Part shown: positions 6 through 53,504 of the stretch, in pieces
How positions within the stretch are numbered: the first letter of the stretch is position 1
Layout: each line of letters begins with the position of its first letter
Source: Hyphochytrium catenoides
Lineage: Eukaryota > Sar > Hyphochytriomycetes > Hyphochytriales > Hyphochytriaceae
Length of the DNA: 64,000 bases
Direction: 5' to 3'
Assembly: GCA_900088475.1 (NCBI GenBank)
Contig: FLMG01000265.1
Location: 37,649-101,648 of the forward strand
The notes under the pieces: model-generated
Database searches by the model: none
Told to the model about the DNA's origin: nothing
What the model saw: the letters and a program-made list of their open reading frames with translations, nothing else
Translations under genes and position numbers: made by a program

Positions 6-44
<39 letters not shown>

Positions 45-4158: not shown

Positions 4159-4476
4159 ATGGAAGAAAAAAGAAGCGGAAGGGAGACAATTCAAGGAGGA
4201 TCATCCATCAACGTCAAAGTTTGGGCCAGTCAAGTTAACAATAAATTCAAGTCTTTCGAAGCTTTCAAGCTAGAAAAAGACAAATCCCTTCTTGTACTCA
4301 GTGGTAACCAAGGAACACCGTGAAACCTTTCCACAATCGTTTTATTTCTTTCAGATGTAACGGACAAGGCGCTTGGTTGGACAACATGCCAGTCGAAGCA
4401 GCACAGAGCTCCTCTGCCAACAGCGCTTATTAGTCTGCTGGGCCTTAGTCGCAAAGAAGAAGAGGGAAAGGAGTAA
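4159..4476 (+). CDS. small hypothetical protein, two exons
   Basis: ATG at 4159 opens an exon to 4303, followed by a 51-nt GT-AG intron with a clear pyrimidine tract (tttatttctttcag), then an exon 4355-4476 ending in TAA. Joined, it gives 88 residues including VKVWASQVNNKFKSFEAFKL and DVTDKALGWTTCQSKQ. No family recognised. Composition looks like real protein rather than an antisense shadow. The gene may be longer: plus-strand coding-like sequence resumes at about 4560-4619 and 4665-4804, ending with a Lys/Glu-rich stretch (EVEEVEK, WAEARKKRT) and TGA at 4802-4804, but I could not join it in phase. Confidence 0.35.
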
Positions 4477-23798: not shown

Positions 23799-24156
23799 CC
23801 TCTCCGTTGCCCGGGTCTGTTCTTACTTGCGCTAAGTATATGAGTTACCCCAACACTGAGTTCTCTTGGTGGCCGCAGGGAGCTATGAGTTAGCTTGGCA
23901 TCAGCCGCCGGTAGGCAAGGCCTATCCCCTGAGTCCTCTGCAAGGGCTCTTGTCGGTTGAATCACTAGTCATGGGTAGACCTCTTCTGCTTATCGCACTC
24001 CGTCAGTGGCCTTGAGGGACGCCACTGACGTAAAGCCAGAGGGATGACTGCGGTCGTAAGGTTCTGTACGTCTGAGCGCCGCAATAGTTTGAGGTAGAGC
24101 GAGACTGTGGCGTAATGTCCTGAGTATCAGTATGTCTGGGCGCCCCGCCACCTTAC

Positions 24157-25897: not shown

Positions 25898-28137
25898 GTC
25901 GGCACTATAGTAGAGACCGAGGACTAATAGTTATCGGCCCGACAAGCTTGCAACAACAACGACGTCAAGGGACCCCAGAAAGGTGGTTTCACAATGGAAG
26001 CCAACAACAGGAGGACCCTTGAAGAGATCGCCAGGCTTCAGTATAGACAAGCACCACGCACAAGCGCGGCAGAGAAAGACTTTGCGGAAGGAGCGCGCAC
26101 AGCAAGTGGCAATATAACTTCCATCTTGACAGAGGAGGTTATTGAACATAAGAGTTGAGGAAAGAGTCCCCCTTGCGCGAGAGAGTGTCTACCTGGGAAT
26201 GCAAAGAAGGAAATTGAAACATGCAGGAAAAATTGAAGGATCAAGCAAGAGGCTATCCTAAGATCATGATGTACTGAGGAAGAAGAGAGCAGCAGAAGAA
26301 ATAAAGAAGGGTAAGGAAAGAGGAACATCGTTCATCAGAGCCATTCGTTCACTCTTTTTAATCGAACTACCCGTCCTACTGAGAAACCCTCAGAGGGCTT
26401 CATCCCCACACACTCGCCGATCCTCATCCAGCTCTGAGTCAAGTGCTCACTTGTTGTTGTCCTGATCAGTAGGCAAAAAATACAGCATGATGCTTTGCTG
26501 CTGTTTCTTACTTCTTCCTTATTAGCTTTTGTTCAAGAATAGTAAGATCTTCTACTGCTACTGCTGTTGGAGGACGAGAAATGTCAAGAGATTGTTAATC
26601 TTTATTCAACCTAATGCAAACGCTACTAACAAGTGCCACAAGTTGTGAGCCATTAGCCGCGTCGCATCATCACCATCAAGAGCATTGAGGAACCTTCATT
26701 GTTCAGCCATAAGTGTTGCCTTCCTTTCAGACACCTTCTTCTTCTTCACCATGGATTTTTGTTTTGCAGTTCAGGCTCCTTCGCATGGAAAGAGCAGAAG
26801 AGTCGCCACCTTTTCCTTTCTACTGAACGACGACGCTAGGTTCTTCATAACATGTCGTGAACGCTCGTCTTATTATTCCCTCTTCTTCGCTCTTTGCCCC
26901 TCAAACTGTTTACAATCCTAGGAGCTGCTACTACGACGTCAAAAAGCCGTGGTGCTTGTGACAGCAGCTGTAGATTAAATCGCAGCAGAGGATCAGACGA
27001 CAGAAGAAGAGGCACATCAAGCTACAACCCCGCATATCCGAGATGATCGTCATGACCGACAACCCGACCGAGTGAGGGGACAAGCTGTAGAGATTAAAGA
27101 AAGATCGGCTCTCCTCCGCTGATGAGCGCCAGGTGTTACTACGACTGTCGCACAATAAGGATGCCCCCTTCTCCTGTTAAGAAGAAGAAGAATCCACCAC
27201 ATCTCTCATAAAATAGAGTTACAGCTGGAACCTCTGTGCAGCAGTAGCGCCACTTAGAATCCATGAAGTGCCATCTTCCTTTGTTGTTTGCTCTTCCTAA
27301 GTTGCCCGTTCTTGTTGTTTGTTATCTTGTTGTTATCTCTCCCACCACAACGTCACCATGTCAGCTGAGAATAATATTATTAGTATTGCAGAAAGTGGTA
27401 GAGGCGTTCTTCACCAACGACTAGCTCTCGTTCCACTCTCCTGCTGCCTTTTCCCTTTGTCGGCGGTCGCTCCGAGGGAATAGATGCAAGTGAGAAAGGC
27501 AGTCTAAGCTCGATAGTAACTTTAGACATAGCCGCTGACCCGCCGATGTAGGAAATAAATGAAGAAATGACTCACAAGCCTCTCTTGGCAGGGCAGTAGT
27601 CTTGGTCTCTGGAGGATGGAAGGCAGTGGTCCGGAGGCGGAGGAGCGAGGAGATGCTGTCCTGAAGTTGTCAAGTGTCCGTTCGATAGACGGAACAATAG
27701 CCGTTTTCGTAATATATGGTATAACAGTCCTGAATATGCCGCTCTGCAAGGGTTCTATCCGGAATAAGGGCAGAAACGAGAAGTGTATACTTGAGCGTAA
27801 CGCCCATGTCACCGTATATGCATCTGTCGATGCTCGATAGTAACTTTAGACATAGCTGCTGACCAGGAAGGACGAAGACTGCTCGTAAAGTCCATGAAGA
27901 AGGAATCAGCTCAGACCGAGAGACCACAGTTGCAGATTCTTCTGTCCATGACATAGATGGTTTTACACGACCCACTGGAAAGCCGTGAAGGAGACGCCCA
28001 CTCTGTTCGTGCACCACTCGTACAGTGCCATTCGTCTCCCGCCCCACCTAAAGGGCTGCTGGGTGCGTTTAACCCTCTTGATCAGAGTATTTTCAGATTG
28101 TCTCTCCACTCTGAAAGCCTCACTCTATCGGGCCAAG
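25898..28137. other. long stretch without recognisable genes
   Basis: About 2.2 kb with only short, low-complexity ORFs on both strands, many A/G-rich or T/C-rich triplet patches (GAAGAA, CTTCTT, CTGCTACTGCTG around 26520-26570 and 27180-27200). It includes a 33-nt direct repeat (27508 and 27832). It may contain UTRs, a non-coding RNA or unrecognised exons. Confidence 0.4.
27508..27864. repeat. pair of 33-nt direct repeats 324 nt apart
   Basis: Positions 27508-27540 and 27832-27864 are identical except for one C/T difference (GCTCGATAGTAACTTTAG at the start of each). They enclose 291 nt of non-repeated sequence. Confidence 0.85.
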
Positions 28138-29078
28138 ATGTTGGTTCGAGAGAGAGCTAACAGCAATCAGAACCGCCGTCAAACCACATTTATTGCCAAA
28201 GGCACTGTTTCAAGACTAATCGACAAGTTCAACTCTACGAACCCAGACTCTGAATGGATCGCCCAAGAGCAAGTTTCAAGGATCTATGATGTCCATCCAT
28301 CTGCATCCAGGCCCCAAGTCGTGACCTTCGAAGCTCTATCTCGCATGGTTTCAAAATGGCAGAAGCTCTCTTCTATCGTAAAGAAAAGGAGAAATCTTCG
28401 CTATCCTTTGTCAGAAGACAGCGTTACCTTAGAAGTTATAGAAGAGAGTCAGCTTTATCATGGCTCAGANNNNNNNNNNNNNNGAGCACAAGTGATAAGC
28501 AGACACAAGAATGCAGCAGTAAGCAGACCCAGCCGGAGCTTGTGGACCAATTGTTGAAGCCCTACGACTCTTACATCAAAGAAGTCTCGGAAGAGAGTCA
28601 AGTGTATGAACTCATGGTCACTGATGATGCTCTGAAAGTTGGGCTGTGCGAAACCGAGGCGCTGCTTCGTTACCGAGTGGTTGATGCCTTCACCTTCCAC
28701 AAACTGAAGTCGATGGTTGAGAAGAGCTTCATGTTCATGCTGAAGCTGGACTCGCTAGCGAAGGAACATAACACCTTACAAGGGACAATCTTTCAGGAAG
28801 TCCTGGCAAGCCTCTCGAGCGGCAGCAAAGGAAAGGGAAGACGGTCGGTGCGGGTACCGGGCAGAGTGCAACTCCCACCCGCTTTGATGGTAGAGCTTCG
28901 AACCTCCGTCGAGGAGCTTATCAGTCTCGTGCGGATCAAGGTTGAAGATGACAAAGACATTGCTCTAGCGAGGAACGCTTTGAAAGAGTGTTTGGTAATC
29001 CTAGATGGCGTTATAAGCTATGCCAAGAGAGACAACCTTGACATCTACACGGCTGTGCAGATTCTCCGTAGGTGGTGA
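28138..29078 (+). CDS. helical protein of unknown function, interrupted by an assembly gap
   Basis: ATG 28138 opens a frame reading TTFIAKGTVSRLIDKFNSTN and SEWIAQEQVSRIYDVHPS up to the N run 28470-28483. After the gap a different frame continues: PELVDQLLKPYDSYIKEVSE, KLKSMVEKSFMFMLKLDSLA and ALKECLVILDGVISYAKRDN, stopping at TGA 29076-29078. The frame change is explained by the unknown true length of the gap. The product is at least 300 residues and mostly alpha-helical. A GTGAGT at the end could also be a donor, so the gene may extend. No family recognised. Confidence 0.55.
28470..28483. other. assembly gap (14 N) inside a coding region
   Basis: Unresolved bases; the reading frame changes across it, so the true gap length is not 14 or is not a simple substitution. 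Confidence 0.99.
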
Positions 29079-34265: not shown

Positions 34266-36929
34266 TTATACAAGCACAGGGTCAGTGGCTCGGCGCTTCC
34301 GAAGGCCCTCTCTTCCAGAGGTCTCACTCTCATGTCCTTTCCTCCTTGTCCCCCTTCGAACTTGAGGCTTAGGCTCATCAGCCGTCGTTTTATTAGCTAC
34401 TTGTTGTAAGGACCCATGCGCTTTCCCGTCTTCTTCCGGTAGTTCGTGCCCGTGCACTCCCTCCACATCTTGAGAAGAAGATGGAGGCTTGGTAACCGCC
34501 CTCTTTGCCTGTTTCCTTGATCTGCTTAGAGTTTCTCCGATTTCCCCCTCTGGCACGTCGGAAAGTGGGCGCTTGCGTGGTCTTCCTGGCCCCCTCTTGG
34601 GCTTCGCCTCTTTAGACTTCGTCTCTTTAGGCTTCGCTTGGGCGTTCTTCGGTGGCCTTCCTCGCTTCTTCTTGTGCTGCCCAGCCGGACCATGGTCACC
34701 AACAGACTGTGCACCTTTCTTGCTAGACGCTTCATCCCCCTTCTTTGACCCAGCCATCTTCCGAGCTCCCTTTCTCTTTATTGACCTCCCAGATGCCACA
34801 ATTCCCTTGGTAGTAGCAGCTGTAGAGATCGATTTCTTCTTGTATTTCGTACCGACTTCATACTTTCGAGGTCGCCCGAGCTTCTTCTTTACAGTGACAA
34901 TTTTGACATTTTCGTTAGCTATCCGTGGCCTGCCCAGCACAGTGTGGACCTCCAAGAGTTCATTCAGAGGAATGTGCTGGACCCGGATCAGCCCTGAGAC
35001 CCCGGATGAGATGACGGTGTCTTTTGCAGTCCAGATGGTCCTGCAAAGGGTCGGATTCTTGTTTGGCTCTAATGGGGACAAAAAGACGTTCTCTCGGTTC
35101 AGAATAGGCTTGTTCCCTACTTGCAGAGGCCTAATGTTCATAGAGAGCTTTAGGTCCACGCCACTAGCCCTTCCGATGGCTGGGACCAGATCGAAGCCTA
35201 GCACTGAGGCATCGAGTTCCGCTCCATTATCCGCTAGAGGCAGAAGACGCAATCTGCCGTCAGCTCCGCAGGATGAGATCACAGGCACCGAAACGACAGA
35301 AGGGTCTGAGACAATGGCTAAATCCCACACTGGCAGTGTGAGGACACTGTGCTCGTACAACCTGCTCGGCACAGACGTAATCAAGTCAAGAAAGACCACT
35401 GCATTCGCGAAACCCGTGAGAAATAAACCTTCGGCATGCGGAGCCCACGCTACCTCAATCACCCCATCGCCAAGTATATCGTGTAGCTTATATTCTGCCA
35501 GAGGAGAGCGCGTATTGTCCCTATGCCATATCCGAACGCACCCGTCATTATGCCCAGAAACGAAAAGTTTTGCATGGTAAGGGCACCATGCGACAACTTG
35601 GGTCACGGTAATCCAAGGTCGCGACCTGTTGCAGGCTGACGATGCTGCTACATACTGGCCTAAAGGGACAGAAGACACCTTTCCTACTTCAGATATTGTG
35701 GTCCAGAGCGTCACTGAACCATCAGTTCCGCCAAGAAGAAATTCGTTTGGGGAATCATAGCCCCAGCGGATGCAGTTGAACTTCGTGGAAGGTAGGGAGA
35801 CAGTCTGGTAAGGTGGAAGCGCAGCAACAGTAACCTCTGCCCTGCTGATGGACTCTTTCTCCCAATGCTTCTCCAAAAGGCTAACCGGAACGTCGAACAA
35901 GGCGACCGAGCCATTCAAATAGACAACCCCAAGAAGCCCCACGCTGTGAGCCCCACACACGAGATCGTTGGCCCACCGAATATCTAAAACATCTCCTAAC
36001 GTCCCAATTGCACCTACCATCTGAGAGCCACCCTTCCCTTGGTCACACTGATCCATGGAGGTCACTCTCCAGAACTGGATGAGGTTGGGGTCTTCTGAGT
36101 ACTCTGTATCATATCTTCGCTCCCATGGAGCCGTAACGTCAACCGAAGGGCCTTGGTCTGAGTCTTTAGGGACGAAAGTCCCTACTGCGAGAAGCGTAGA
36201 GCCATCTATTTGACGAGGACATGCATCCATCGCCCAGACAGGGCCACCTGCATTCATCACAACCCCAGATAGGCTCTTGTTATCTTTGTCGACGTCCTCG
36301 GTGTGGTACTGGCTCGCGAGCTCTATGCTTTGAAAGGGCAAAAGCTCAACATTCCTCACTGGTCGCTGTATGGGATACCTGTCATCTTCTCCACCTTGTA
36401 CCACCGCAAGATTGAAGTGTCGGGTCAGCTTTGTCTGGTCAGGCCACAGCGATGCACTTGAATCCCCGTTACAGTTGTTAAGCCACTCCGGCAGTTGCAT
36501 CGAGCTGAAGTTGTTTGAGGAAGCACAGGAAATCTTATCAATCCTCCGGGAGGCTAGCATGCCTGGTTGACGCTTCTGGAGCCCTGTTTTGAGCTCGTTC
36601 CTAAGGCGCTTCTTGACCTTCGAGTGAGTCCCAATAACTATTGAGCTATCTTTCTTTTTGGCCTCTTTGCGTGCCTCAATGAAGACCAAGATGCGAACGA
36701 TCAAGCCCGACAGCTGAAACCCCAGTTCTCGAAGGTCCTTGTCATTCATCTCAAGTAAGCGATTCAAAGTGACCTAGCGCACCACCGTTAGTCTCTGCAA
36801 GAGATTACCAATTAGGAAGGGGTTCGTCAGCTCTTTTACCTCTTTACTGACCAAGAAATCATACAAAAAGTGCATGTTCTCAGCCCGAAGAGCCTCGAGA
36901 AGAGGCCGATAGGTGGCGTTAACTGGCAT
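34266..36929 (-). CDS. WD40-repeat AT-hook protein (TFIIIC subunit-like)
   Basis: Exon 36929-36840 joins exon 36773-34266 in phase 0; 865 residues. The N-terminus, split by the intron, looks like a SAM-type helical bundle (LLEALRAENMHFLYDFLVSK, LLEMNDKDLRELGFQLSGLI). A beta-propeller of WD-like repeats fills about residues 160-600 (DVLDIRWANDLVCGAHSVGL, FNCIRWGYDSPNEFLLGGTD, VAWCPYHAKLFVSGHNDGCV, VAWAPHAEGLFLTGFANAVV). The C-terminal 200 residues are Lys/Arg-rich with three AT-hooks: KKLGRPRKYE near 661, KKRGRPPKNA near 735 and GPGRPRKRPL near 760. The SNF-like propeller and long basic tail recall plant WD40 proteins and the GTF3C2 (TFIIIC beta) family. Inferred role: DNA-binding scaffold in Pol III transcription or chromatin. 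Confidence 0.8.
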
Positions 36930-37701
36930 GCTCCTTGTGTCTTAGGTGCCTCCCGAATAGCCCCCACTATAAGCTGTGACAGCATCCATGGACGAGATGC
37001 AGAGCTGTCTCCATAGGTGACTTTTAAAACAAGTACTAGGATGTGCCAGCGAAATCAATTCCTCTAGCACTTCTTTCCTACACCAGGATTCTTCACGATC
37101 AGCTTTCCTCGCACATCTGATAAGCCACTAGTCAATGCCATGTGAACCCGGAAAGACGCATGCACTTCATAGCATTTCAGAGCTTCCGACGTATGCTGGT
37201 GCCAAGGCTAAGCAGTTCTGACGACTGTTGTCATCCTTTAATCTGCAAGCTTCACGTAGCAGCTACTGACAAGCCTGTGGAATCTGGCTCTGATCAACAG
37301 ATTTCTTGGGATGTGGTGGACTCTATCATTACGTTCAACGTCCTCGCCTCCAGATGCCAGAGTGCAAGCCGATGTCAGCCGCAGTCGGTGACGCCTATAC
37401 TGTAGGCAGAGCTGCAGGCACCTGGTCTTCTTTCAACAAATCTTTCAATCGTTATTTGCGGGGGAACCAAAGAACTTATTTTCCGCCTAGAGTCACAATA
37501 AAATGGGAAACTTCTCTGGGTCTAGCGTTTTCACAACGCCTACCCCAGGAACAAATAGTTACTTTCGTGTCTCAGTTTGGAGTTTCTTTATTTTCGTGGT
37601 TCTTGGTTTATATTATTTTGAAGTACTTCTCAATGGTAACCTACACCTTTCTCTGTGCTGCTTGGGATCTAAAAGGAACGGCGGCAGATGGAGCGGCTCA
37701 C
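36930..37701. other. intergenic, promoter of the WD40/AT-hook gene
   Basis: 772 nt between the start of the WD40/AT-hook gene and the stop of the giant gene, both on the minus strand. A T-rich patch lies near 37570-37640. Plus-strand ORFs here have no recognisable content. Confidence 0.45.
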
Positions 37702-40700
37702 TCAAAGGTCTTCCTCCTCATTCTCAATCTTCGTTTTGGTGTCATTGAAGGCCCTGGAGAAGGCGCGGTTGATGACCATACGATCTGGCGACTTGCCATG
37801 AGGATCTTTGACATCCGACTCTGCGTTGGTTAGGCTCTGAAGCTGCTTAGCCAACATCAAGGTGGCCTTCGGCCGGGAAGGAGATTGGGTTGGCAAAGGT
37901 GACGGTGAGCCTCTTGGCGGCGATGCGTCACTCGTTGCCCGCTTCGTCGGAGTAGTGGCCCCAGTAGGACTTGTAAGAGGCCGCACCATAACCTTGTTTG
38001 GGCTCAAGGTGGGCTTACTAAGGAATGTTATCCTGGCGGCGAATCTTGCGCCCAGGGTCTTGCATGTGTGCTCTAAAATAATCGGCAGGTCCGACGATAG
38101 AAGAAAGTCTTTGAATGCACCTTGTTCCACGCAACCGATATTCGCCTAGAAGGAGGAGATACGTGTCAGTGAGGATAGAAAAGGGAAAGCAAGGGGCTGT
38201 TGGAAACGAAAAAGTTCAAAACGAGTTGAAGAGAAAAGTAGCGAGGGAAGCTAGACTGAGATGAGGGCTTACCGGATCTAATCGGTTATAGACTGCCTCG
38301 GTGAAGGTCATCATGAACTCGGTCATGTGCCCAGACAGGAGTTGCTTCTCTTCAACTGTTGAGACCTGCGGCGAATTGAGAAGATTAGTATGTGACCGTG
38401 CATCCTTCCTGAGTAGTCATACAGTGACGTCGAGTACCTTAGCCTCGATGCTGTTGCCAATGAGGTCAGCTAGCGCCGACTGGATATGGCTATAATCCAG
38501 GTGAGAGGAGCCTCCGGCGTCCAATCTCTCCACACTGTTGAGCAGACACAAGATGATTTATGGTGGAGCATGGAGATGGGTATTAGACGGAGACGCAAGG
38601 ATTGGGAGCAAAGATGATCTCTTACAGTTCAGAAAGGTGTTCCTCAGAAATCAACAAGCTTAGGTCATCGCCTAATAGCAGTGATTGCAGAACCTCGAAT
38701 GGATTCTGGCGAGACTGTAAGCTGCTGCCTACGGCAACGGGAGGAAGTTCGCCGCCCAAAACTGGAGAAGGAGGCGCCTCTGAGGACCACATGGAGGACA
38801 TCAAGTGGGCTGGAGGGGCCTTTGGAGACAGGAGAGATGCTGACGGATCCATTCCCATGCTGGTCTGTACCCGCTTTGACGGTGAAGTAGGACCAGATGT
38901 CATCGGTCGACCTGCTTCCGAAGCATGAGATGACTTTAGCAATCCGCCCACCGTTGCGGGTTGGCGCTGAACGTACCTTTCTTTCCCCAGCCGCCTGGTC
39001 TTGCGGATTTGTTATAAGGAGAGGGCGCCTGTAAGGAGTGAGAAGGAACATGGCCAATTAGCTCGGAAGATATATATAGAGAGAAGATAGAAATAGGGCC
39101 TACCTTAACAGTGCCCAAGGGCTTTTTGGAGGCAGCGAGCTTGAGCTGCATTATGGCAAGTGATTCCTCCATCTGCGCCTGTTTTGCTTCGTATGACGTT
39201 TGCATTTGACTCAGTTTGGCTGCGGTCTCCTCTGCCATGAGGCGCCGCTGCTCATCCAGTCGCCGTTCCACCTGCATTGGCGTAAATATGCAGGTGTTTT
39301 ATAGTATAAGATGTTCTTATATTCTTACCTCGAGATGCATGCTCATCACCATTTGCTTCTCTAACTCCTGCTTCATCGCCAGTATTTTTCCTTCAGTACC
39401 AGCCGCGGAATGGCTCTCGGCCTTCAAATGTTTAGCTCGTTGTTCAGCTAACTTTCGCGCTTCCTCAGCTCTCGCCAGCTTGACGGCGTATGATTCTCTC
39501 AATTCGTGCAACTCGTTCTCTAAATTAGAAGCCCGGCTATCAGCTTGTTCTCTAGCTCTTTGAACTGCGTTGTCCAGCGCCTTCTGGTATTCCTTCTTCA
39601 ATTCTTCAATTAACGCCTCATGCTCTCGTCGCTGTGCAATCTTCTCCATGTCCTTCTGATCGAGCTAGAGATGGACCAATCAACAAATAAGGGCTTAGTA
39701 TAGAAGAATACAACGCAAAGGCAGACAGGTCAATAGACGGTGAAGCGATAAAGTTGGAAGAACGTTCAAAGGGAGTTAGAGACGATGGAGCCCCCGACAT
39801 GGACAGGTTACATTGGAGTAAGCGGGAATGACGATCCAGTTCTGCTTACCCTTGCTGCCATCTCCTCTATCCGCGCTCTGGAAGCATCCATTGTCTGCTT
39901 CAGCTTTTCGTCCCAATCCTTTCTCTCTTCATCGATTGCCAGCCTAAGCGTCTTCAGCTGTGCTTGAGTCATCGATAGCTCAGCTGTCGACTCAACGAGA
40001 GTCTGATTCTTTTGTAGTGCCAGATCCTTGATAGTACCGATAGACTGTGAGCGAAGGGCAGCCATCTCCTCCTGACCGTGCGCCAATAGCTTTTCTAGCT
40101 TGTAATTCTCATTCTGAAGCTGCAAGCAACGAAGAAGTTAGCCAGTAGACTCCACTGCTGATTCCTATAAGCAACTAGAGGGCTTGATCGCTTCCGTTCA
40201 TATCAGTGGGTAGAGATAATAGAAAAGAACTGTGAGGGACTCAAAACGATGAAGAGAACCTTACCGCAGCAATACCATCCTCCAGCTGCCGAACTCTTGC
40301 CACTTCCATTTGCAAGTCTTCTTCCCAGGCTTGCTTTGTGTTCATGAACTCTGTCTCTCTAGCCTCCCACTCCTGGGAAATGGCCTGTCAGACGTCTCGT
40401 TGGATTCCTAACGTCACCACCGTAAAAAGTCTACCTGCTTCCAGTGCTTATCAGTGTCGTCCTTCTCAAGCTTCATCCTCTCCAACGCTTGTTGATAACT
40501 TTCGTCCATCTCCTTCTGCTTCGACTCTAAGGTTATAATCTTGCTTCGCAACTAGGGATAAAGAATATCGTTAAGGACTGCTATACCAGCCTCATACCAG
40601 GAGAAAACGAACGCTCATGGTAAGAAGTTGACTATAGAAAGCGGCGGGGAAAGCGAGATACACTTTGGGCCCCCTAACGCTAAGTATAGGAAGTCTTCAA

Positions 40701-43700
40701 ACGTACTTCTGTCTCAAGGGTATTCTTTTCCTCTTGAGCAACCTGCAGCTTAGAACGGAAGTCTTGTTCAGAATCTGCCTTGAGTTCTCGCTCATGCACA
40801 AGTGTGAGATTTAGCTGTCCGTGCTGCTCTTGAAGGGCCGCCAATTGGCTATGGACGTCTTCTAGACGCTTTCTCTCCGCTTCTAACTGCTGGTGCAGAG
40901 CTTCTGCGCCGCCTCTAGCCTGTAGACGCCACATTACTATTCGTCCGCTGAACTGCAAGAGCAACTATTATTTGAGGCGCTTACCATGAGGCCATGCTCC
41001 TCAGCAGAGGAGAGCTTTCTCTTCAACTCAAGACTCACTGCTTGGTGCTCGTTCTGAGTAGCAGCCAGCTCTGCTGCCAGAGCTTCAACCTACATAACGA
41101 ATAATTTTTTGCTATTAATGGCTGTAAGGGTGGTGAGACTGCATAGAGAATAATAGTAGAGACCATCATTTAACGCTTAATGACGTAAGTTGTTTTAGGA
41201 TGAGGGGTTTACCTCTTTAACTTTGCGGGACAACTCCACCTCCGTCATTGCGAGCTGACCCTTCGTGCTGCTGAGAGTGAGGTGGTTGCTTGTGAGTAAC
41301 TCTTCTTTAAGCTGCAGCTGCTTTTCGAGCTCTGTCAGTGATGACTGCAAAGTTTGAAGCTCCTGCTGAAGCTTTGATTCTGCCGCAAGAAAAAACAAAG
41401 ATTCAGAGTGCTAGAAGCGATTGAGGGACAAGACTTCTCCTACCGCTATCTTGCAGTCTCTTTATGCCGTCATTGCTCCTTGACAGCTCCTCCGTGGACG
41501 CTTGTAGCATGCCACTCAGCACCGCCTGCTCCTCTTTGCCTTGTTCTATCCTCTTAATAAGCTATGAGAAAAGGGTTAAAAGTTGTATACTGTGACGGCG
41601 CCGTTTGCCCTTCCCTCCGCCGCATTATACTTGTATTCTTTGAGTGCATGGCGACTACTTACGCTTAATAACTCGTCTTGCGCCTTTTGCATCTCTCTCG
41701 CCATCTCCTCTTTCTCTTCGGTAAGCGCCTGGATGTTTGCCTGTAGGCCGTGAGTGCTCATCGCAAACTTCATCGCCTCCGATGCGAAAGTTTTCTCAAG
41801 TTCTCCTAACAGATGTGCCGTCGTCTCCGCTCTGGCAGACTCAAACAATACCCGCCCTGTAGCTTCCTCTAGCCTTTTTTCCAAAGACGCAGACAATTCC
41901 TGTGTCCACCGACGAAGCCTATTAGTTCTTCTTTACATCTTATAATGCTGGCGGCAAGGTAATTGAGCCTAGCGGCCAGGCGTACCTGTTGCTTTGCAAG
42001 CTTTGTCTCCAGATCAACTATGCTCTGTCCGGCCGCCTCGCCCTGTATCCGCAAGTTCTGGACAGCCTCTTCAGCTGTTGACTTTTGCTTGGCAAGCTCT
42101 GCCAGCGCGGCGTCGGAATCCTGCCGTAGTTTGTCGTAGTCAGCCTTTACGACAGAGAGCTCTTGGGAATGCCCTGCCGCCATAGACGATAGCTTTTCCT
42201 CAAGCATAGTGGTCACGGCCTCAAGCTATGGTATCCCGGACCGAAGGTGCCAACAGAAACAAGGACGACCGACGAGGAACCGGACAGAACAAGGGAGGGA
42301 AGGTAGTCAGCTATAACCTGTTAGATGGACTGGGGAGCGTTCCATCTTACCTCAGCTTTGCTCTTGTCTTGGTGGCCAGACAGAAGAGCCTCCAGCTCCG
42401 CAATCCGCTCTGCACTCTTTTGCTGCATGGCCTTCGATTCGTTCTCTAACACAGCGAACGCACCTTTGGCATCGCCTAGAGATGTCAAATTACGTTTAGA
42501 ACACATACCCGGACCAGAATGGTTAGAACCCCTGGAAAAGGAGGGCCCCTCCAACCTACCTTCAGCCTGCTCTAGCGCGGCATACACGTCAGCAATCCTA
42601 TGTGCATAGTCAGCCTCTAAAGTCGAGATTTTTTCCTTGGTCTCGGCGACTTGAGCTTCCTTGGACTCGATGGCAATCTGGAGTGCCACCTGCAACTCAT
42701 TGGCGCGGTCCAGCGCTCTCTGCTCACTGCTACGTAGTGCCTGGACCTCCTTTTGTGCCTCCTACGACCACGGCAAAAGGACTTGAGGTCTACACAGTAG
42801 GGATATATACAGCTCACATCTCATTTCTCACCTCAGCAACCTGTCGAGCAGTCTCTATCTCGGCCTGCATAGCACGAATGCTTCCCACTAACTCAGTTTC
42901 CTGCTTATGTTTGGCAGCGAGTAACTCCTCATATCTCTGGACATGACTTTGAACCTCTCCTTCGAGCACCGAGCAGGTTACTTGCAGGTCCTTAACCATC
43001 TGACTTGCAGCTTCCTCAGCTCTTGCTCTGGCTGACTCAACAGCATTAACGGCCTTCATAGCCTCAATCTAATGGGGATAGATGAATTCAATGAGTTTCC
43101 CGATCCCATCTAGGCAAAGTTCTAAGCCAAGAAAAGCCAAAAGGATATGACAAGCTTGTGTAAAATACCTGCTTTGACTCCATCTCTGCCTTAAGTTGCT
43201 GGCATCTATCTGCATACTCCTTGGCTTCCTTCTCAAGCTTACCCTTTAGTTCTGCCACCTCCACTGCGCTCTGTCTCTCTCTCTCCAATGCGCGATGATA
43301 CTCAGTCTCCAACTGGGACATCTTGGAGTCCACTAAGGAAAGTTTGAAGGCAGCTGCCTCCTGAGAGGCCTTGATGGCATATTCTGCAGAGCTAGATGCA
43401 GCCTTAGATGCACCCGTGGCTGTTTCCAATGCGGCCTTGGCAGCGGAAGCTTCAGCGCTATAGAAGCTAAGTTCTTTCTCTAAAGTTTGAATCCTGCTAA
43501 CGTTAATAGCATCTCGGATGGAGAACTCCGACTTCTCTGTAGCCAATCTCTGCATAGGTAGCAAGCAGAAGCGATCAGTGAGTCAATGTAGAACGTCAGC
43601 TCTTCTTACGGGTTGTCCTCTTTGTTTGTCAACTTCCTCCCATCAGACGATCAGTTTTAGCGTTCCATCCTGCCGGTTCTGGTTGCCATAGTCATCTAGC

Positions 43701-46700
43701 CTTACCTGCTCAACCTCAGCTATCTTTGTTACCCATGATTTATCAATATCGTCCTGAAGTTTGTGGAGCTTGTTTATACTGCTTTCCTTCTCCTCCTGCA
43801 AAAGCTTGGCTGTGATCTCCAACCGCTGAGAGTTGGTGCTCAGCTCAGCCATCAGGCGTTTCACCTCACTCTCCAGCTCCAGAGACTGCAGCTTCTGGCT
43901 GCTGATGACTGACCGTAATTCTTTTGCTTCTTGTTCGGAGCCAGTTAGGCGTGCGGTGACCTCAGCCAATTGCACTGACATCGACTTCATCTCTGCTGCA
44001 TGTGCAAGAGCGACCTCCTCTGCTCTGGTTGCCGCCTGGCTCTGCACCGACCCAATGAGCATGATCAGAGGACACACATTTTCCGTGGTAGACTGGCTAA
44101 GTGGGAAACTTTACCTTAAGGATTTGGACTTCAGCCTGCCACTGGCTGCGGTGAGCATCAAATTGCTTTTCCTGCGCCTCCATCTTGACTTTCAGCTCTG
44201 TTACTGTGGCAATGTGCTCGTGGCCCTCTTTATGCCACTGGTTCTCCCGTTTCTCAAACGCGTCAAGCTCGGTCTGCAATTCCGTCACTCTAGCAGCATA
44301 GAAATCCCTCTTGGCTAAGAAAAGTGAAAGAGGTAAGATTAATGAAGATCGACATCAAGGTGACAAAAGACAATCAATTTATCAGGTCTGGCTCACCTTT
44401 TGCTTGCTCAGCCTCGCACTGTAGGGCACCGATCTTTTCTGCCGACTCAGACATAGAATGCTCCAGTTTTTGCTGCAGTGACTGAAGCTTATCGTCAAAC
44501 TCTTTGCGGTACGCAATTTCTCGCTGCTGTGCAACAGCTAGCTCGCGTTCAGAATCGCGACGGCTCTCCTCAAGCTTCGTTGACTTCAGAGCCGCAGCCT
44601 CGGTGGTAGCCTAAATTTGAAACCGAGGTTCATTGCTAGAGTTAGGCGGCGAACTGCTCTGATAAGCGGGGAGTCGTCTGCAGTATCCATAGCTGGCCAA
44701 AGAGATCGGCCAGAAAGGCAATGACTAAAAGTATAATAAGCAAAAGAACTGTAGCGCCGCAGAAATAGCAACGAGAGGTAGTCGAGTTAGAGCTCATGCA
44801 GATTGAGAAAGCATTTGTAAAGTTGCACCAATTGTAGGCCGTAATGGTGACGCTCACCTTGAAAAAAAGTTCCATACTTGAGGAGGCGGAAGCAGACGCT
44901 CCTCTAGCGGCTTCGACAGCTGCCTGAGCTGCCGTTAGCTGCGTGGACAGTGCCAAATTCTGCTTCTCGAGGGCTAGAATTGTTTCTGTAGCGTGTTTCT
45001 CTTTTACGGCAAAATCAGCTTTGGCCATTGCCAGTTGGCTTTCAACCTGCGCAAGTTTGGCCATCTCCGTCTGCCGCAGAATGGCGTTGCTACTTTCAAC
45101 GTGATAGATCTTTCTATCAAATTCTTGGGCAGACCGTTGAGAAGCTTCATCAACTGCCTTCTGTACTCTGACCTCTGTCTCCTGCACCAACGCCTTATTC
45201 ACACCTCTCAAGTTCTCCACTTCGGCAGACAAGTCCTGAATCTTGCGCCGTAGGTCCTGCTCTAACGACTTTTGAGACTGCATTTGGAGTTCCAATTCAG
45301 CCACACGTCGATAGTCTAGCGCACGTTTTAGGGACGCTTCCTCTTCGTGTTGCTGCAACAGGCACAAGAGACACGGGGTCAGCTGGGGTAGTTGGACCGA
45401 CGAAATAGCGAGCCCCATGGCATCCAATAAGAGAAAAAGAAAGACATACATAACGCACCCCGCTACACCTAATTACCTTTATGTACTCTGTCGTTGAACG
45501 GGCTACACGCTCATTAATGAGCTTTTCTTGTTCAGCTAGCTTCTCTGTGAGGTCAAAAACAAGGGTCCTACTTGCCCGTTCTTCAACAGCTCGTCTGCCT
45601 TCTCGAACATGCATGCGCTGCAGCTCACTCTGTAGTGATGCGATTCTGCGGAGTGCGTCATCTAAAGTTTCAATGTACACTCCTTCTGTTTCAGTGCCTA
45701 TCTCTGCCACCTCTGGCCGTGAATCATGTGCCGCGTCAAAGTCTGGTAGTGCAAAGGCACTGTCGCCATTGATCGGAAGCGGGGTTGGAGGCAACGCTCC
45801 ATCACCGCCCGAAAGCAAGTCCTGATGTCCCTCCTCCCCTGGATTGACGGGTGCTGCTTGAGAAACTTTGAGCTGCGGGACAGAAGCTGGTCGTGGTGTC
45901 CTAGGTACTGCTGTAGTGACCGGCTCGTCCTCCATTTCCTGGTACTCGCTGTTTAGAGTGATGGTACGAGCGTGAAGTAGCTCCGGTGACAACGGATCCA
46001 TTGCTTGTGCGGTCCTCGTAACTGCTGGTGTAGACTGGGATTGAAGTCGAACTTCACCGTCACAAAGAGAAGTAACCGCTTCAGCAAGCGTAGAAGGGCT
46101 CTCAATAGTGGGAATGACGGTGACTCCGGTCGTTGCCGTGGCTCCAATCTCCATCGAACTGGAGATATGCGGCTGAGAGGCTTCAACAGAGGCCTCCAAG
46201 GATGTCGAAGCCTCTAAGAATGTTTGATTCTCAGGACATTTTTCCGCTTCATCCCTCAGGGGGCTCTGGGCGCTTTGTGGACCAGAATTGTCCAGCTGAT
46301 CAGCCAGAATGTTGCTCAATTGGACCGTGTAGATAGTGTTGCCTGACGGGGGATCAACTACTGGTGATGTGCCTGCAGATTCAGCGGACTGAGCCTCGGA
46401 CAATACAGGCTGGGAAACAGGCTTAGATGGTACTAGAGAAGGACCAACTAGATCTGAGGCAGGAGTTGAAGTTACAATCCCATGCTCGGCTGGTGTGCCC
46501 TCGGTTGGATGTTGCTCTAGGATAGACTGAGATGCCTTGCCAACAGGCGCAGTTAGTTCCGGGACGAATGAGATCGTGTCAGTTGGTTCCAAAATGGGAG
46601 TAGGCTCCTCCAACTGAGCGGACCCTGCATCAGGCATTGGTTGGGTAGTATCGCTGGGCTCATGGCTCTGTTTAAGAGCTACCAAAGCGGCGGCCGGCTC

Positions 46701-49700
46701 GACTGCTTGAGCAATACCTCCGATTATTTGAGTATCCGAGGACTGATTGTTTGCCTCTGACGCCTCTCCAGACTGAACCACACGTTCTACGGGATGAAGG
46801 ACCTCCTCAGATACGAAAAGGCCTGCCTTAGCTTGGTCTGAAATGGGATCTGATACTCCCAAAGCAAGTTTTTCTTGGTAAGAGAATGGCTCAAAGGCAT
46901 TGGCTGACATAAGAGCTGGCTGTGCAATAGGCTCAGATGACTGAGGAGGTTCAGGTGCTCCGGAGACAAGCGCGGCAGCCTCAGCCGGTGCGAGCTCTAT
47001 TGAATCCCGCTCAACTGATTCACGGGCGACTGCAGTAGGCTGCGCTGATTCATCGACAGGAGTGGCATGACCAACAGTCGGGTCTGATGGATCCACCCCT
47101 CGCTGGGCATCCTTTGAGGAGGTCTCGGATGGCACTAAGCCGAACTCCGTCATATCAGACGTAGGGGCAGCAGAGTCGCTTGGAGCTTTTACACTTTCAT
47201 CAAGCTGAGAAGGTGCCTCGGATGGTATGGCGCCAGTCTCCTTTGATGACACTGGCTCTGCTGCAAACAGCTGGGACTCGAGTGGCTTGAGGATTGATTC
47301 AGGCGCAACCAAAGGCGAATCTTCTGACAAAAATACAAGGTGGGTTGCTATGGCAGGGGACTCCACTGCATGAGTAGTAGGTTCGGATGCCTGAGAAAGG
47401 ATCTCGGCTGATAGATTATTTTCCTCTACAAAATCAAGCACAGATCCGTCGGACTGGGCTATCTGATTCACAGGTTGAGAGACAAGGTCAGGTTGCAAAG
47501 GTTGTGCCTCAGGCTGACATGAAACAGGATCTGATGCTACCACTGCAGGTTGGGCTGCTTGAACAACAGCCTGAGATGCATCCAGGAGGGAAGCAGCCGG
47601 CTGAGGAATAGGCCCAGATACATCCAAAGCAGCCTCAGTTGCTGGTGCAATGACTGTAGCAGGCGCAGCTGGTGCTGAGGTTTTTGAGGTCATTTCAACT
47701 GGTTCAAGGGCTAGTACATCAAGCGGCTCTGGGTTTGTGGCAGAAACGGTCTGGGTAGCTTGCTCCTCTAATCGAGCCACCCGTACGTGAGCGTCCTTTG
47801 AGAGAGTGTCGGATGGCACGAAGCCCGAGTTCGGTAGAACAGAGGTAGGCGTGCCAGAGTCGCTTAGAGGACTGGCAAGCTCAGCAGGTACAGGATCAAC
47901 TTGGGGTACGATTCTAGCCTCCGTTGATGACACTGGCTCTGATGCAAACGTCTTGGACTCGATTGCCTTAGAAACAGAGCCAGGCGCAATCAAAGTTGAA
48001 TCTTCTGCAATGATTACAGGGTCGGCTGCTACGGCTGGGGACTCCGCTGCAAGATTGATAAGTTCAGTTGGCAGAGAAAGGGTCTCGGCTGATCGATTGT
48101 TGGTCTCTAAAAGATCGAGCACAGATTCGCCGGACTGGGCTATCTGATCCACAGGTTGAGCGACAACGTCAGATGGCAAAATTCCTGCCTCAGATGTATC
48201 AGAAACAGGATCTGATGCTACAACTGCAGGTTGGGCTTCTTGAACAACAGCCTGAGATGCATCCAGGAGAGAAGCAGCCGGCTGGTAGATAGTCGGAGAT
48301 ACGTCCAAAGCAGCCTCACTTGCGGTTGAGCTGACTGTAGCAGGCGCAGCTGATATTGAGGGAATCGAATCCGGATCAGCGGATTCAAGGGTTAGCACTG
48401 CAAGCGGTACTGGGTCAGTAGCAGAAAAGGTCTGAATAGCCTGCTCTGCTGGTTGAAGACTGGATTCTAGTCGATCCAGTTCGTGAGCATCCTTTGAGAG
48501 AGTTTCGGAGGGCACGAAGCCCGACTTTGTCAGAACAGAGGTGGGCGCGGCAGAGTCGCATAGAGGACTGACAAGCTCATCAGGTTGAAGATTGATCCCA
48601 ACTGGTACGATACTAGGCTCCACTAATAACACCGGCTCCGATGCAAATGCCGTGGACTCCAGTGGTTTAGGGACTGAGTCAAGTGCATTCAATGACGGAT
48701 CTCGATTGTTCGCGTCTGAAGGATCGAGCGTAGATTCGCCCGACTGGACAATGGGTTCCACGCGTTGAGCGACAACGTCCCATGGCAAAAGTCCTGCCCC
48801 CAGTGGATCGGGAACAGTCTCTGAAACTACCACTGCGGGCTGGGCTGCTTGGCAAACAGTCTGGGATGCATCCAGGACAGAAGCAGCTGGCTGATCGATA
48901 GGCTGAGATACATCCAAAGCAGCCTCAGTTGCTGTTGAGCTGACTGTGGCGGTCGCATCTGGCACCGGCGTTTTAGAGATCAGCTCAGTCGGCGCAAGGG
49001 TTAGTACATCAAGGGTCACTGGGCTAGTAGCAGAAATAATCTGGATAGTCTGGTCTGTTGACTGAAGATTGGGTTCTAATTGATCCACTTGTTCGTGAGC
49101 ATTCATTGAGAGACTTTCGGATGGCACGAAGCCCAACGAAGTCGGAAGAGAGCCAAGCGGAGCAGAGTTGTTTAGGAGACTGACAGGCTCAGCGGGTGGA
49201 GGATCCGTGCCAACTGGTACGATACTAGGCATCGTTGATGACTCCGATTCTGATGCAAACGCATTGCGCTCGAGTGCTTTGGTGGTTGAGTCAGGTGCAA
49301 TTAAGGGGGAGTCTTCTGAGTTGATGACAGGCTCGACAGCTACGGCAGGGGACTCCATTGTCTGTGAAATGGGCTCGGATGCCTGAGAAAGCGTCTCGAC
49401 TGTTCGATCCCTAACCTCTAAAGATGCATGCGCAGTTTCGCCGTAATGGGCTATGGAGTCGAAAGATTGAGCGACAACCTTCGATGATAAGGGTTCGGGC
49501 TCACCCGAAACTGATATAGGCTCTGATGCTTCCACAGCAGGTTTCGTCAGGTCAACGACCGGCTCAATGACTTCGGTTGAAATAACAGCTGACGGAGAGA
49601 TAGACTGGGATGTGTTCTGAGGATTCTCAGGTGCTCCGGAGACGGGTGCAGCAGGCTCAGCTGGTACGAAGTCTTTTGAGGGCAGCTCCGCTGGTCCCTG

Positions 49701-52700
49701 GATTACAGCAGTAGGCTGGACGGACTGAGTGACAGGAATGACGTGATCAACAACCTCGGCTGAGAGAGGGGTAGGCTCTGATGGATCCAATACTACGTGG
49801 GCATCCTCCGAGAGGCCCTCGGATGGTATGAAGCCTGACTCCGTCAGAAGAGAGGTAGGTGGAGCAAGGCCGATTGTCGGACTGACAGGCTCAGCAGATC
49901 GAGGATCGGTCCCGGCTGGTACGATACGAGGCTCCGTTGGTGATACCGGCTCTGTTGCAGGCGCTGTGTGCTCGCATGACTTAGGGGTTGGATCAGTTAC
50001 CATCAGAGGTCGGGCTTCTGAGTTCATGACAGGTTCGACTGCTACGGGAGGGGACTCCGCTGCTAATGTATTGGGTTCGGATGCCTGAGAAAAGGGTTCG
50101 GCTGATTCGTTTCTGGCCTCTACAGACTCGAGCGCAGATTCATCCGTATGGGCTATGAGTTCTACAGGTTGAGCGGCAGTGTCAGATGGCAAAATTACTG
50201 ACCCAGTTGGACATGAACCACCCTCTGAAGATATCACTGCAGGTTGGTCTGCAGCACTTTCGGGTGCAATCGAAGGAGCGGCAGCTACGTCCAAAGCAAC
50301 TTCAGTTGCGGTTGATATGGCTGTAGCAGGCGCAGCTGGTAGTGAGTCTATTGATGCCGGTTCACCGTGCTCAAGGGCTAGTGCAACAGGCGGCACTGAG
50401 TTGGTAGCAGAGCTAGCCTGGGTATCCTGGTCTGTTGGCTGAGGATCAGCCTCTGATAGATCCACTGCTGCATAGGATTGATCGGAGCGACTTTCGGATG
50501 GTACAAAGCCAGGCTCCGGTAAGACAGAGGTAGGCGGGGCAGTGTCGGTCGGCGGACTGACAGGCTCAGGAGGCCGAGGATCGGCCTGGGGTTCGATGCT
50601 AGGCTTGATACTAGGCTTTGTCGATGATATTGGCTCCGATGTAAACCCAGTGCCCTCGAGTGGCTTATGAGCTGTGTCGGAGGCTGACTGAGTAATAACT
50701 TCATAGGTGACCAAACCAGGCTCGAGCGCTTGGGTTTCGGCGGCACGTTGCAACACAGGCTCCGAAGCTTGAGGGGCAATGTCAGACGGTAAAGTATTTA
50801 GCTCAACCGGATCTAAAACAGGTTCTGATGCTTTCAAAGCAGGTTTGGCAGGACAATCTACAGTCTCCAATGCCTCAAGCACAGAAGCAGTAGATTGTGA
50901 GTTATACCTAGATGCGTCCAGATCAAGCTTGGCGGCTGCATGGGCTAATCCTTCGAAGGCTACTGAAGTCGATTCAGACGGGCTCGGGGCACTTACAGCA
51001 GGCTCTACGCATCGCGTAATCAAGCCAGACTCGATTGTTAGCTCCGTTGGCTGAGGACTGGGCTCTGAGAATCTCGGTGCACTGTCGGAAGGGACAGAGC
51101 CAAGTCCTGACATCACCAGGCTTGACTCCGCCTGATTAGACTCTGGCTGGGTAAGTTCACAATCTTGAGTGACAGGCTTAGCAGGCTTGAAGTCAGCTTC
51201 AGATTTTACGATAACCACCTCAGTCCCTAGTGTAGCACACTCTGCTGTTGGTGAAGTGGGCTCCGCTGGCTGAGGGGGGCTTTCGGATCTATCCAAGGCA
51301 GAATCAGCTGCCTGAATGATAGGTTCGGGTGTGGCAAGAACCGGCTGTACTGACTGTGCACTCGACTCGAAGGTCTCGTCAGCATTCTCGGCTGACCCAT
51401 GCGTGGCCTCCAACAATATGGTTAACGAATTGATGGGACCAGTGGTAGGCTCCGCATAGTGAGAAACAGCCGCGGTTGGGTTGAGAACGGGTTCAGCTGT
51501 ATGCGAGACAGTCTCTGCTACAACCGGGATATTTGGATCCAGGTTGGATACAGCGAGAGCAAACTTAGCTGGGGAGGAGCTAGGGTCAACTGCTTCACGA
51601 AGGGCCTGTATAGGGTCAGCGTTTTCGGAGACTGCTCCACTTGCTTCGAAGGCTAAGGGGTTAGGATTTACTGGCTGGCTTATTGGCTCTGCAGTCCGGG
51701 GAGCTGGCTCGGCTTCGGGAAGATCAGGTAGAAGTGCATCTTTGTGTCCCTCAACTGACACTGGAATGGCTTTTGATACCAGGCTAAAGGGCTCGACCAC
51801 CGGATAATGAGGTCCAGCAGCTTCTGGGGCAGACTGCGTGGTCTTTGTGAGATACCCAGACTCCAGAAAAGACTGGCAAGTAGGCTTTGTCAGATTGAGA
51901 CTGACTGCTTGAGATGTAGGTTGCGCTGCTTCTGGGGAAGCTTCAGCTGAGTGTTGATTAGGCTCGGAAGGTTGAGTAACAGACCCAGCTGGCTGCTGGT
52001 CAGTTTCCGTAGATTGAATAGCAGGCTCGGCTATTGGACTTTCCGGTGTGGACATTCTTGGCGTACCGTCGATGCCTTCAAGAACCTCGGTCTGGTGGAA
52101 AGTAGCCTTTGATTCCAGAACACGTTCCGTTGGCTGAGAAACGGCATCGCATGCGATTGGATTTGTCTTATCTGTCTGTAGAGTAGGTCCTGAAGCGGTA
52201 GTCTCTAGGTCAGTTGATTGAGTGTTTGCCTCTGGTGCCTTAATAATTAATGCTTCATTGAGATGATTTGCTTCAGGTGCCGGAGCAGTGGACGGAATGA
52301 TCTGAGGGTTCGTATCTAATGCTGGGGCAGCAGACTCAGGCAGCTGAAGATTGGAACCTGATGCCGAGACATCTGGCGCAGCAGACTGGGAGGAAGAACT
52401 AACCTCTGGCTTTGACTCTGATTGTGCCAAAGCAGCGTCAATAAAGCGAGGAGTAGATTCAACCGCCAGAATAGCAGGATCTGCTGGCTGTTTATCACGT
52501 TCAGACGCCGCAGGAGCATTTTCGCTCCGTTGAGGGAACGCCTCGTCTGTCTGGATAACCAGCTTTGCGGACTGCTTAACTGAAGCAGTTGACTGACTCT
52601 CGGCTTCTGCATGACTTCGAAAAACTTCCTGGGATCTGAGCGTACTTTCGGATGATTCCGTACCGAGCTCGACTGGTTGAGAATGAGGTAACAGATTAAG

Positions 52701-53504
52701 ACCAGCGTCAGTAGACTGAGGTGTATGCCCTGATGCCATAGCGTCCTGTACTTGAGGATCGGCCTCAACTACACCGATAGCGCACTTGGGAAGCAAATTT
52801 GTTGAGTCGGCGGCGGCCACCTCAGGAATGACCATATCAGGCAAAGCATGGGATTTTGCGGTGAAAGGCTCTCCTGACTGGCCAGGTGGCGGTGGCACCG
52901 AAGTCTGCTCGGATGTCGGGCAAATTGACTGAACAGAACCCACTGCCTGAAGATGACCAAGATTAGCTGCTTGACTATTATGGTGTCTATCCAACAGTGC
53001 GAGGCTATGTTCATCCGTTGGCTGTGGATCCTCTGGCCTAGAAGAAGGGTCCATGGAGTTGCAGCTGTCGCTTGCATTGGAAGTGCTCTCAAGCAACTGA
53101 TTAGCCGAATCCAGGTGGGTTCGTTCGGCGATTCTTAGCAGCTCCACCGGATCGCTGCTCCTACCATCACTGGTCTCATCAATTCTATGGATAGGGGTAT
53201 CCTTTTCGCCGAACGTCTTGCCAGGGAGGTGTTCTGCCAGGATGGCCGTAGCTACGCTTTGTGGTATAACCTCGCTATAAGCTCTCTTCTGACTGATGAC
53301 GCGATCAATTGACTGTCCTATCTCCAATTGGACGGCGTCAACGGAGAGCCGCCTCACGACGCCGGGATAAGGTGACCCGACTTTACTGCCATGAGTTGGT
53401 GGCTCAGTTATTTTGCCGAGAGATGATTCTTCGTGAGCCTCTGAAGAATCAGCTTTCTTTTTATGAGCAACCGAACTCATACCGTTCAGACTCTCCGCAG
53501 ACAT
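37702..53504 (-). CDS. giant repeat-rich coiled-coil protein, about 4,427 residues
   Basis: 25 exons join without any phase conflict. Exon 1 is 53504-45477 (2,676 codons); the rest are 45352-44858, 44610-44397, 44314-44115, 44041-43706, 43549-43169, 43068-42832, 42761-42560, 42475-42351, 42225-41986, 41899-41663, 41561-41444, 41379-41213, 41089-40985, 40919-40707, 40551-40435, 40384-40265, 40119-39850, 39664-39329, 39271-39104, 39028-38977, 38914-38626, 38534-38438, 38365-38273 and 38145-37702. Exon 1 encodes a disordered Ser/Pro/Ala/Glu/Val-rich region with short EPVSQ-like units and six longer repeats carrying SGFVPSETLSKDAH. From about residue 2,600 to 3,950 the protein is heptad coiled coil (LEQDLRRKIQDLSAEVENLR). 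The C-terminus has Ser/Pro-rich segments and a helical end (KQLLSGHMTEFMMTFTEAVY). No motor, GRIP or other known domain. Probable cytoskeletal, centriolar or Golgi scaffold; inferred only. Confidence 0.85.
46980..50530 (-). repeat. six imperfect tandem repeats inside exon 1 of the giant gene
   Basis: The sequence for GFVPSE/LSKDAH recurs near 50494, 49820, 49114, 48498, 47807 and 47119 (spacing about 674, 706, 616, 691 and 688 nt; all code in one frame). Between them recur QPAASLLDASQAV, QAAQPAVVASDPVS and ESPAVA-type segments. Copies are clearly diverged at the nucleotide level (the 47570 and 48251 copies share a nearly identical 30-nt block). Confidence 0.8.

Follow-up and report, generated by a model that had tools for sequence, protein, structure and literature searches.

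What kind of protein is specified by a gene whose first coding exon runs to 8 kb, largely as a repeat, and whose remaining exons are small, and what, if anything, does selection keep in such an exon? The question is raised by a gene on the minus strand (53504..37702) of a 64,000-nucleotide stretch of the Hyphochytrium catenoides genome (contig FLMG01000265.1 of assembly GCA_900088475.1, positions 37,649 to 101,648; this whole stretch is ‘the window’, and its own numbering is used throughout). We propose, at a probability of roughly one half, that it encodes a giant, three-part intracellular protein, comprising a polyanionic disordered spacer, a coiled-coil tether to the cytoskeleton, and an end made up of an EF-hand-like domain and an S/T-P tail. 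The gene is real, intact and unusual, and the two-level repeat of its first exon and the kept spacing of acidic residues are its noteworthy parts; neither of these two, nor the C-terminal domain with its tail, had been noticed in an earlier reading of the same DNA (the original prediction).

One gene across intron 1

A hand-picked join of 25 exons (the ‘manual’ model) stays open over 4,427 codons, stop included, for a predicted protein of 4,426 residues, with 24 introns that are all GT-AG and 50-247 bases long; phase 0 is seen in 19 of the 24 (37702-45476, minus strand). Exon 1 (8,028 nt) has no stop in its 2,676 codons, and the other five frames across the same DNA hold 95-166 stops apiece. 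Codon usage was dropped as proof of coding for this exon, two antisense frames scoring equally well. The parts of the gene, all on the minus strand, are as follows.

45477..53504, minus: exon 1, 2,676 codons; predicted disordered acidic half and the first ~79 rod residues (one splice model sets the donor 18 bases further)
45352-44858, 44610-44397, 44314-44115, 44041-43706, 43549-43169, 43068-42832, minus: exons 2-7, manual model
42761-42560, 42475-42351, 42225-41986, 41899-41663, 41561-41444, 41379-41213, minus: exons 8-13, manual model
41089-40985, 40919-40707, 40551-40435, 40384-40265, 40119-39850, 39664-39329, 39271-39104, minus: exons 14-20, manual model
39104..45352, minus: exons 2-20 together; sites near exons 6/7, 8/9, 15-17, 19 and 20 less sure
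39028-38977, 38911-38626, 38534-38438, 38365-38273, 38145-37702, minus: exons 21-25 (span 37702..39028); boundaries of 21-23 model-dependent
39122..45713, minus: proline-free rod, residues 2598-4097 (manual model), reaching from the last codons of exon 1 into exon 20
37587..37592, minus: AATAAA, possible poly(A) signal ~110 nt past the stop, spotted by eye

Three exon sets were compared: the manual one, that of a dynamic-programming splice model whose training included the rod, and that of the same model trained only on a neighbouring WD40-like gene. The rod-trained model returns 23 exons and 4,363 residues with an identical stop, and has 18 exons in common with the manual 25. Started inside exon 1, the neighbour-trained model finds 1,743 codons at a score of 173.8 and ends at the same stop, 37702; the best that 20 dinucleotide shuffles achieve is a score of 5.0 and a length of 180 codons, and the antisense strand scores 2.1. 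When set against the 24 manual exons that follow exon 1, it reproduces 13 exactly; acceptors agree in 17 of 24 cases and 3' ends in 19 of 24, with the stop included among the ends. The models disagree at the intron 1 donor (by 18 bases), at introns 6 and 8 (retained), at 15/16, at the intron 18 acceptor and at introns 20-23, and two of the 24 introns, 8 and 20, are a multiple of three bases long and free of stops, such that in-frame read-through is possible. Because of these differences and readable introns, the exact exon number and protein length are uncertain; the gene itself is firm. The 25-exon in-phase join of the original prediction is borne out in that the join is open to its stop, although its 4,427 residues are 4,426 and a stop, and its exon count depends on the model.

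Does this frame belong to one gene or two? Composition and intron density shift sharply near 45.5 kb, which favours a pair of neighbours, a single-exon disordered gene beside a separate coiled-coil gene. In the manual model, however, prolines number 308 in residues 1-2597 and none in the 1,500 residues 2598-4097, and this proline-free run starts 79 codons upstream of the exon 1/2 junction; in the rod-trained model it covers residues 2598-4028 (1,431 residues) and also starts inside exon 1. A structure prediction for residues 2560-2676, which all lie in exon 1 (single sequence, no alignment), gives low confidence and no structure at first, and then one helix, residues 2614-2675, that reaches the end of the exon with a predicted local distance difference test score (pLDDT) of 82-97 for the block. 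The frame then passes the GT-AG intron 1 into further proline-free sequence. Given a predicted helix and a proline-free run that both begin inside exon 1, we conclude, on the structure model, that the rod would span intron 1 and that exon 1 and the rod form one unit, one gene rather than two, as the original prediction had assumed along with the start of the helical rod; that two genes are present seems to us very improbable indeed.

The rod has a hydrophobic period of 3.57 residues (power 23.9) over its 1,500 residues, which falls between the heptad period of 3.5 and the 3.6 of a straight helix. The long proline-free helix and 3-4 hydrophobic spacing of a coiled-coil rod are both found here, with the helix predicted for residues 2614-2675 alone. 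Two observations weigh against one continuous rod: heptad power in 56-residue windows is patchy, such that stutters are likely, and the neighbour-trained model keeps intron 8 with its prolines, leaving a longest proline-free run of only 698. If unbroken, the rod would be ~220 nm long (1,500 x 0.1485 nm, the textbook rise). Where all 24 exons after exon 1 had originally been called coiled coil, this applies to exons 2-20 (plus the ~79 codons of exon 1); in exons 21-25, which hold no coiled coil, a proline-rich linker is followed by an EF-hand-like domain of ~133 residues and an S/T-P tail.

A two-level repeat and an acidic register

Within exon 1 there are two layers of repetition, a short degenerate unit and, over part of its extent, much longer units.

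46755..53504, minus: degenerate 7/14-residue unit (roughly S-E-P-V-S-Q-P + A-E-S-A-L-D-A), residues 1-2250, with acids tending to recur every seven residues
47070..51113, minus: six higher-order units of 204-234 residues each, residues 798-2145
46719..47069, minus: partial seventh unit, closest to unit 3

At an offset of 14, residue identity over residues 1-2676 is 0.132, compared with 0.084 (s.d. 0.005, maximum 0.101) in 1,000 shuffles. Cyclic profiles of residues 1-2250 gain most per parameter at seven states and then at 14, the 14-state consensus (approximately S-E-P-V-S-Q-P-A-E-S-A-L-D-A) having a gain of 626.5 against 185.3 for one shuffled sequence. The 7/14-residue period is absent from residues 2250-2590, so that ‘repeat-built’, the original description of the whole exon, fits approximately residues 1-2250. 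Among the higher-order units, 4-6 are the most similar (53-59% residue identity) and unit 1 is on average the most divergent (34-41%), and partial unit 7 is 36.8% identical to unit 3 over 117 residues; such unequal identity suggests that the array was not formed all at once. All nine DNA self-matches in exon 1 begin at whole-codon offsets, and a search of the organism's own genome with a 1,081-base piece of the repeat found four matching places among the best candidates, which were the ones scored, all of them within the gene. Growth of exon 1 via internal tandem duplication, already suggested in the original prediction, is supported by this two-level pattern. Two other meanings of the unit were considered and rejected: in residues 1-2250, SQ and TQ occur 22 and 10 times (15.6 and 8.2 expected), and the CK2-like pattern S/T-x-x-D/E occurs 43 times, with 66.9 expected.

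That this half of the protein is disordered, as had also been foreseen, is predicted from one repeat unit, modelled on an alignment to the five other full units, which gives a mean pLDDT of 49.8 and no secondary structure. Residues 1-2580 have a net charge of -260, and the region is 11.5% proline. A crude charge-hydropathy measure counts against this, placing residues 1-2580 off the disordered side (H 0.473, boundary 0.449), presumably because the region is rich in A, V and L; we consider it to be outweighed by the pLDDT model and the proline content. The gene thereby shows what is expected of a giant-exon disordered scaffold, a several-kb exon encoding disorder within a multi-exon gene, with the disorder predicted for one unit.

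Between copies, the repeat appears nearly neutral, yet the frame and the seven-residue acidic register appear to be kept, and gains of basic, aromatic and cysteine residues appear restrained. The ratio of nonsynonymous to synonymous change (dN/dS) is 0.72-1.03 in seven codon-aligned pairs, out of the nine self-matches. A codon-blind MAFFT alignment of the DNA of units 2-6 has all 6,447 aligned bases in the same codon phase, and the nine BLASTN self-matches have 6,240 of 6,368 (98.0%) in phase. As for the register, D/E autocorrelation over residues 1-2250 is 0.235, 0.203, 0.172, 0.141 and 0.168 at lags of 7, 14, 21, 28 and 35, whereas none of 200 shuffles exceeds 0.072 at any lag from 1 to 35; proline and L/I/V/M autocorrelation is at most 0.055 at lags 7, 14, 21 and 28.

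Is the acidic register kept beyond what neutral drift would leave? Neutral tests used units 2-6 (unit 1 being too diverged and partial unit 7 incomplete), with a substitution matrix built from their third codon positions and with each unit pair counted in both directions for the register acids. Register acids remain acid in 82.0% of 384 cells. Under neutrality 44.2% would be expected over the full pairwise distance, or 65.2% over half of it, with every acid taken as ancestral (the conservative value); the excess over this latter figure is 0.076-0.242 (95% interval, columns resampled). Acids outside the register remain acid in 47.0% of 232 cells. A separate comparison of residues in and out of register is biased, out-of-register residues often being derived, and the neutral models were relied on instead. 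State 9 alone shows a clear acid excess. In-register P, S, Q and aliphatic residues show no significant excess over the conservative value, with A borderline. Gains of K/R/H (2.7% of 4,125, neutral 8.7% or 5.5%) and of F/W/Y/C (1.5% of 4,209, neutral 6.7% or 3.8%) fall below expectation, and acid gains (5.2% of 3,682) lie above both neutral values (3.6% and 2.3%). When six of the 16 possible dinucleotides were divided into 19 dinucleotide/phase classes, in-register GA at codon positions 1-2 was conserved most often (0.82), ahead of the next classes at 0.64-0.65; in the other two codon phases GA is kept at 0.11-0.20, which argues against a mutational cause.

Several observations pull the other way. 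State 2 taken by itself does not significantly exceed the conservative neutral value. Of the 62 gaps in the BLASTN alignments, 35 have a length that is not divisible by three, although, with 98.0% of bases still in phase, these must mostly cancel. Third codon positions are themselves periodic at seven codons (mean z 1.44, compared with 1.89 and 3.52 at positions 1 and 2), which disposed of the idea that the period leaves no mark on them; within residues 1-797 the three positions are about equally periodic (1.74 at the third, with 1.59 and 1.83 at the first two), and even the non-periodic stretch 2146-2590 gives a third-position mean z of 1.61. In the higher-order units the third-position signal is weaker (0.78, with 1.29 and 3.68), and it is on these units that the case for selection rests, some DNA-level memory or noise remaining. 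Selection is also being read between paralogous repeat copies, which are non-independent, with a register fitted on the same sequence.

These observations bear upon an alternative in which exon 1 is neutrally growing low-complexity padding, its acidic period the fading memory of a 21-bp minisatellite, with only the rod and C-terminus functional. The near-neutral dN/dS, the third-position periodicity of residues 1-797 and the 12 of 14 unit positions that do not differ significantly from the neutral rate all suit it, as does the finding, in the cited passages of two studies, that longer internal exons carry more tandem repeats and more disorder (PMC12457776, PMC9825244). It accords poorly with the survival of register acids (0.820 against a conservative 0.652), with basic and aromatic gains under the conservative neutral value and with a codon phase retained in 98-100% of aligned bases, and we hold it to be unlikely.

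A bolder suggestion is that the disordered half is a selected ‘charge ruler’, in which, over ~2,250 residues, the acid at every seventh position would be the main constrained side chain and nearly all else would drift, providing a regular anionic lattice for a repetitive basic partner or else a brush-spacing device. We offer this tentatively and with some doubt, its odds having been lowered by the third-position periodicity of residues 1-797. What selection keeps in disordered regions is rarely clear, since alignment is hard, and six repeat copies within one gene provide a built-in comparison. If true, the ruler would mean that a disordered spacer is specified by a defined sequence code, in an undescribed protein family; if kept in orthologs, it would exemplify selection on how charges are spaced along such a chain, and the growth of one exon by duplication in a gene whose coiled-coil half is divided among small exons.

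The C-terminal end, relatives and a model for the protein

The third part of the proposed protein lies beyond the rod, in the last five exons.

38014..38702, minus: EF-hand-like domain, residues ~4191-4323, exons 22-25 (weak PDB match and reading by eye)
37705..38013, minus: C-terminal tail, residues 4324-4426, with eight SP/TP dipeptides, K+R 15 and D+E 11

Among PDB sequences, with a cut-off of E 10, the domain matches radial spoke protein 7 alone, at E 0.095; none of its three aligned stretches is individually significant, and two resemble EF-hand loops of that protein by eye. Pfam gives no match up to E 10. Dependence upon a single match at E 0.095 and upon inspection counts against a firmer assignment, and we label the domain EF-hand-like rather than EF-hand.

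Searches for relatives were similarly sparse. Nothing lies above Pfam cut-offs for exon 1, the rod or the C-terminus, the best rod matches reaching about half of the curated values (TolA_bind_tri 16.5 of 30.1 bits, Fez1 16.9 of 34.4, TMF_TATA_bd 16.2 of 29.1). This agrees with the original prediction that no known domain identifies a golgin, rootletin, myosin or kinesin: no GRIP-type domain is above cut-off, rootletin's PF15035 is absent among the Pfam matches of exon 1 and rod, and no myosin or kinesin motor domain is matched in exon 1, rod or C-terminus. PDB sequences gave no significant match to the C-terminal part; neither there nor in the protein set that follows did the rod serve as a separate query. 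In a set of 5.8 billion proteins, the C-terminal part of a 1,750-residue query had no relative at E <= 1 (7,426 candidates), exon 1 none at E <= 0.001 (scored over the 7,986 candidates with the most words in common), and the EF-hand-like domain, under a full-length query, none at E <= 1 (727 candidates); with no positive control for eukaryotic relatives there, ‘orphan’ means not found in this set and is weak evidence, and the ‘undescribed’ status originally given to the protein rests on searches without demonstrated eukaryote coverage. In its own genome, among the best candidates scored, the C-terminal domain matches four places and the start of the rod two, all inside the gene.

Might the protein then be a strongly diverged member of a known coiled-coil family, be it a ninein-like centrosomal protein with EF-hands and coiled coil, a golgin or a rootletin? 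The general parts are the same; flagellar machinery is encoded in the genome (IFT46), and the weak match to radial spoke protein 7 is to an axonemal protein. The half-strength Pfam matches of the rod and the missing protein relatives (the rod itself not having been a query) argue against such descent, and we think it distinctly improbable.

Our preferred model is of a spacer held on a tether. Residues 1-~2600 would form a disordered polyanionic chain that lengthened as units of 21/42 bp and of ~700 bp were duplicated in tandem (the order of these two layers is inferred, whereas the layers themselves are computed), with selection retaining the frame, the acid at every seventh residue and a low content of basic, aromatic and cysteine residues, and most other positions drifting. 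The rod (residues ~2598-4097) may dimerise, and its C-terminal end may attach to a cytoskeletal or basal-body structure; the presence of IFT46 makes a flagellar or basal-body location possible. The acidic half would then project as an entropic, charge-repelling brush that either spaces its neighbours or holds basic partners at spaced sites; disordered domains can exert steric pressure, as described in the cited part of PMC4515776.

Elsewhere in the window, the next same-strand frame downstream (34266-36767, minus) is intronless, of 833 residues, with WD40 and AT-hook matches below curated cut-offs. Of two frames at 10423-12042 (minus), one matches the N-terminal (E 7.3e-30) and the other the C-terminal (E 3.1e-20) domain of a 5'-3' exonuclease; presumably they are one gene split by an intron. 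A DDE_Tnp_1_7 transposase match (20949-21812, minus; E 4.4e-07) is to a frame that we take to be PiggyBac-type, and an INO80 complex subunit E match (23307-23822, minus) scores 30.2 bits against a cut-off of 27.8. Runs of X, for masked or unknown bases, occur in the translations of 12119-12529 (minus), 12338-12796 (plus) and the 27952-28554 frame. In the rest of the genome, a 440-residue cox2 frame, judged by eye to carry a long extension at its C-terminus, adjoins cox1 and an atp1-like frame on contig C1105, a contig of 48,127 bases with further ribosomal-protein frames (gene names by eye); cox1 is also found on contig C402. RuBisCO large subunit and light-harvesting proteins had no match in the genome, in a search whose controls were prokaryotic. 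We regard the organism, from its genome, as a flagellated and probably non-photosynthetic protist.

Comparison with known systems

The neurofilament heavy and medium chains likewise combine a coiled-coil rod with a long, charged, disordered sidearm, regarded as a brush. Here, by contrast, the rod is of ~1,500 residues, the arm is N-terminal, and no intermediate-filament rod domain is matched by Pfam in the rod. Proteins of the ninein type pair EF-hands with a long coiled coil; in the H. catenoides protein the EF-hand-like domain is C-terminal, lacks Pfam support, and is accompanied by a giant acidic half.

As regards gene structure, there is a close likeness to the giant neuronal isoforms of ankyrin-G and ankyrin-B (ANK3 and ANK2), in which one giant exon likewise sits within a multi-exon gene for a cytoskeletal scaffold; that of ANK3, encoding part of ankyrin-G, is 7.8 kb in the cited part of PMC5422562. 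Unlike in the ankyrins, the giant exon here is N-terminal and joined to a coiled-coil rod, and Pfam matches no ankyrin repeat, ZU5/UPA or death domain in exon 1, rod or C-terminus. With the long tandem-repeat exons of Homma, Fukuchi and colleagues it shares a repeat-rich long exon that encodes disorder; theirs, in the passages cited above, are internal, with length ranges up to 540 or 840 nt, whereas the exon described here is the first coding one, measures 8 kb and repeats at two levels.

For disordered regions more generally, the portion of PMC6634968 cited here describes alignable sequence as poorly conserved and molecular features as preserved; in this gene it is spacing (the register), and not composition alone, that appears to be kept, as measured between copies in one gene. 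A narrow phrase look-up found no literature on acids at every seventh residue, which does not prove that none is in print. Long, repeat-rich, disorder-encoding exons are already documented, and the growth of this exon is ordinary in kind; it is the kept spacing of charge that is unusual.

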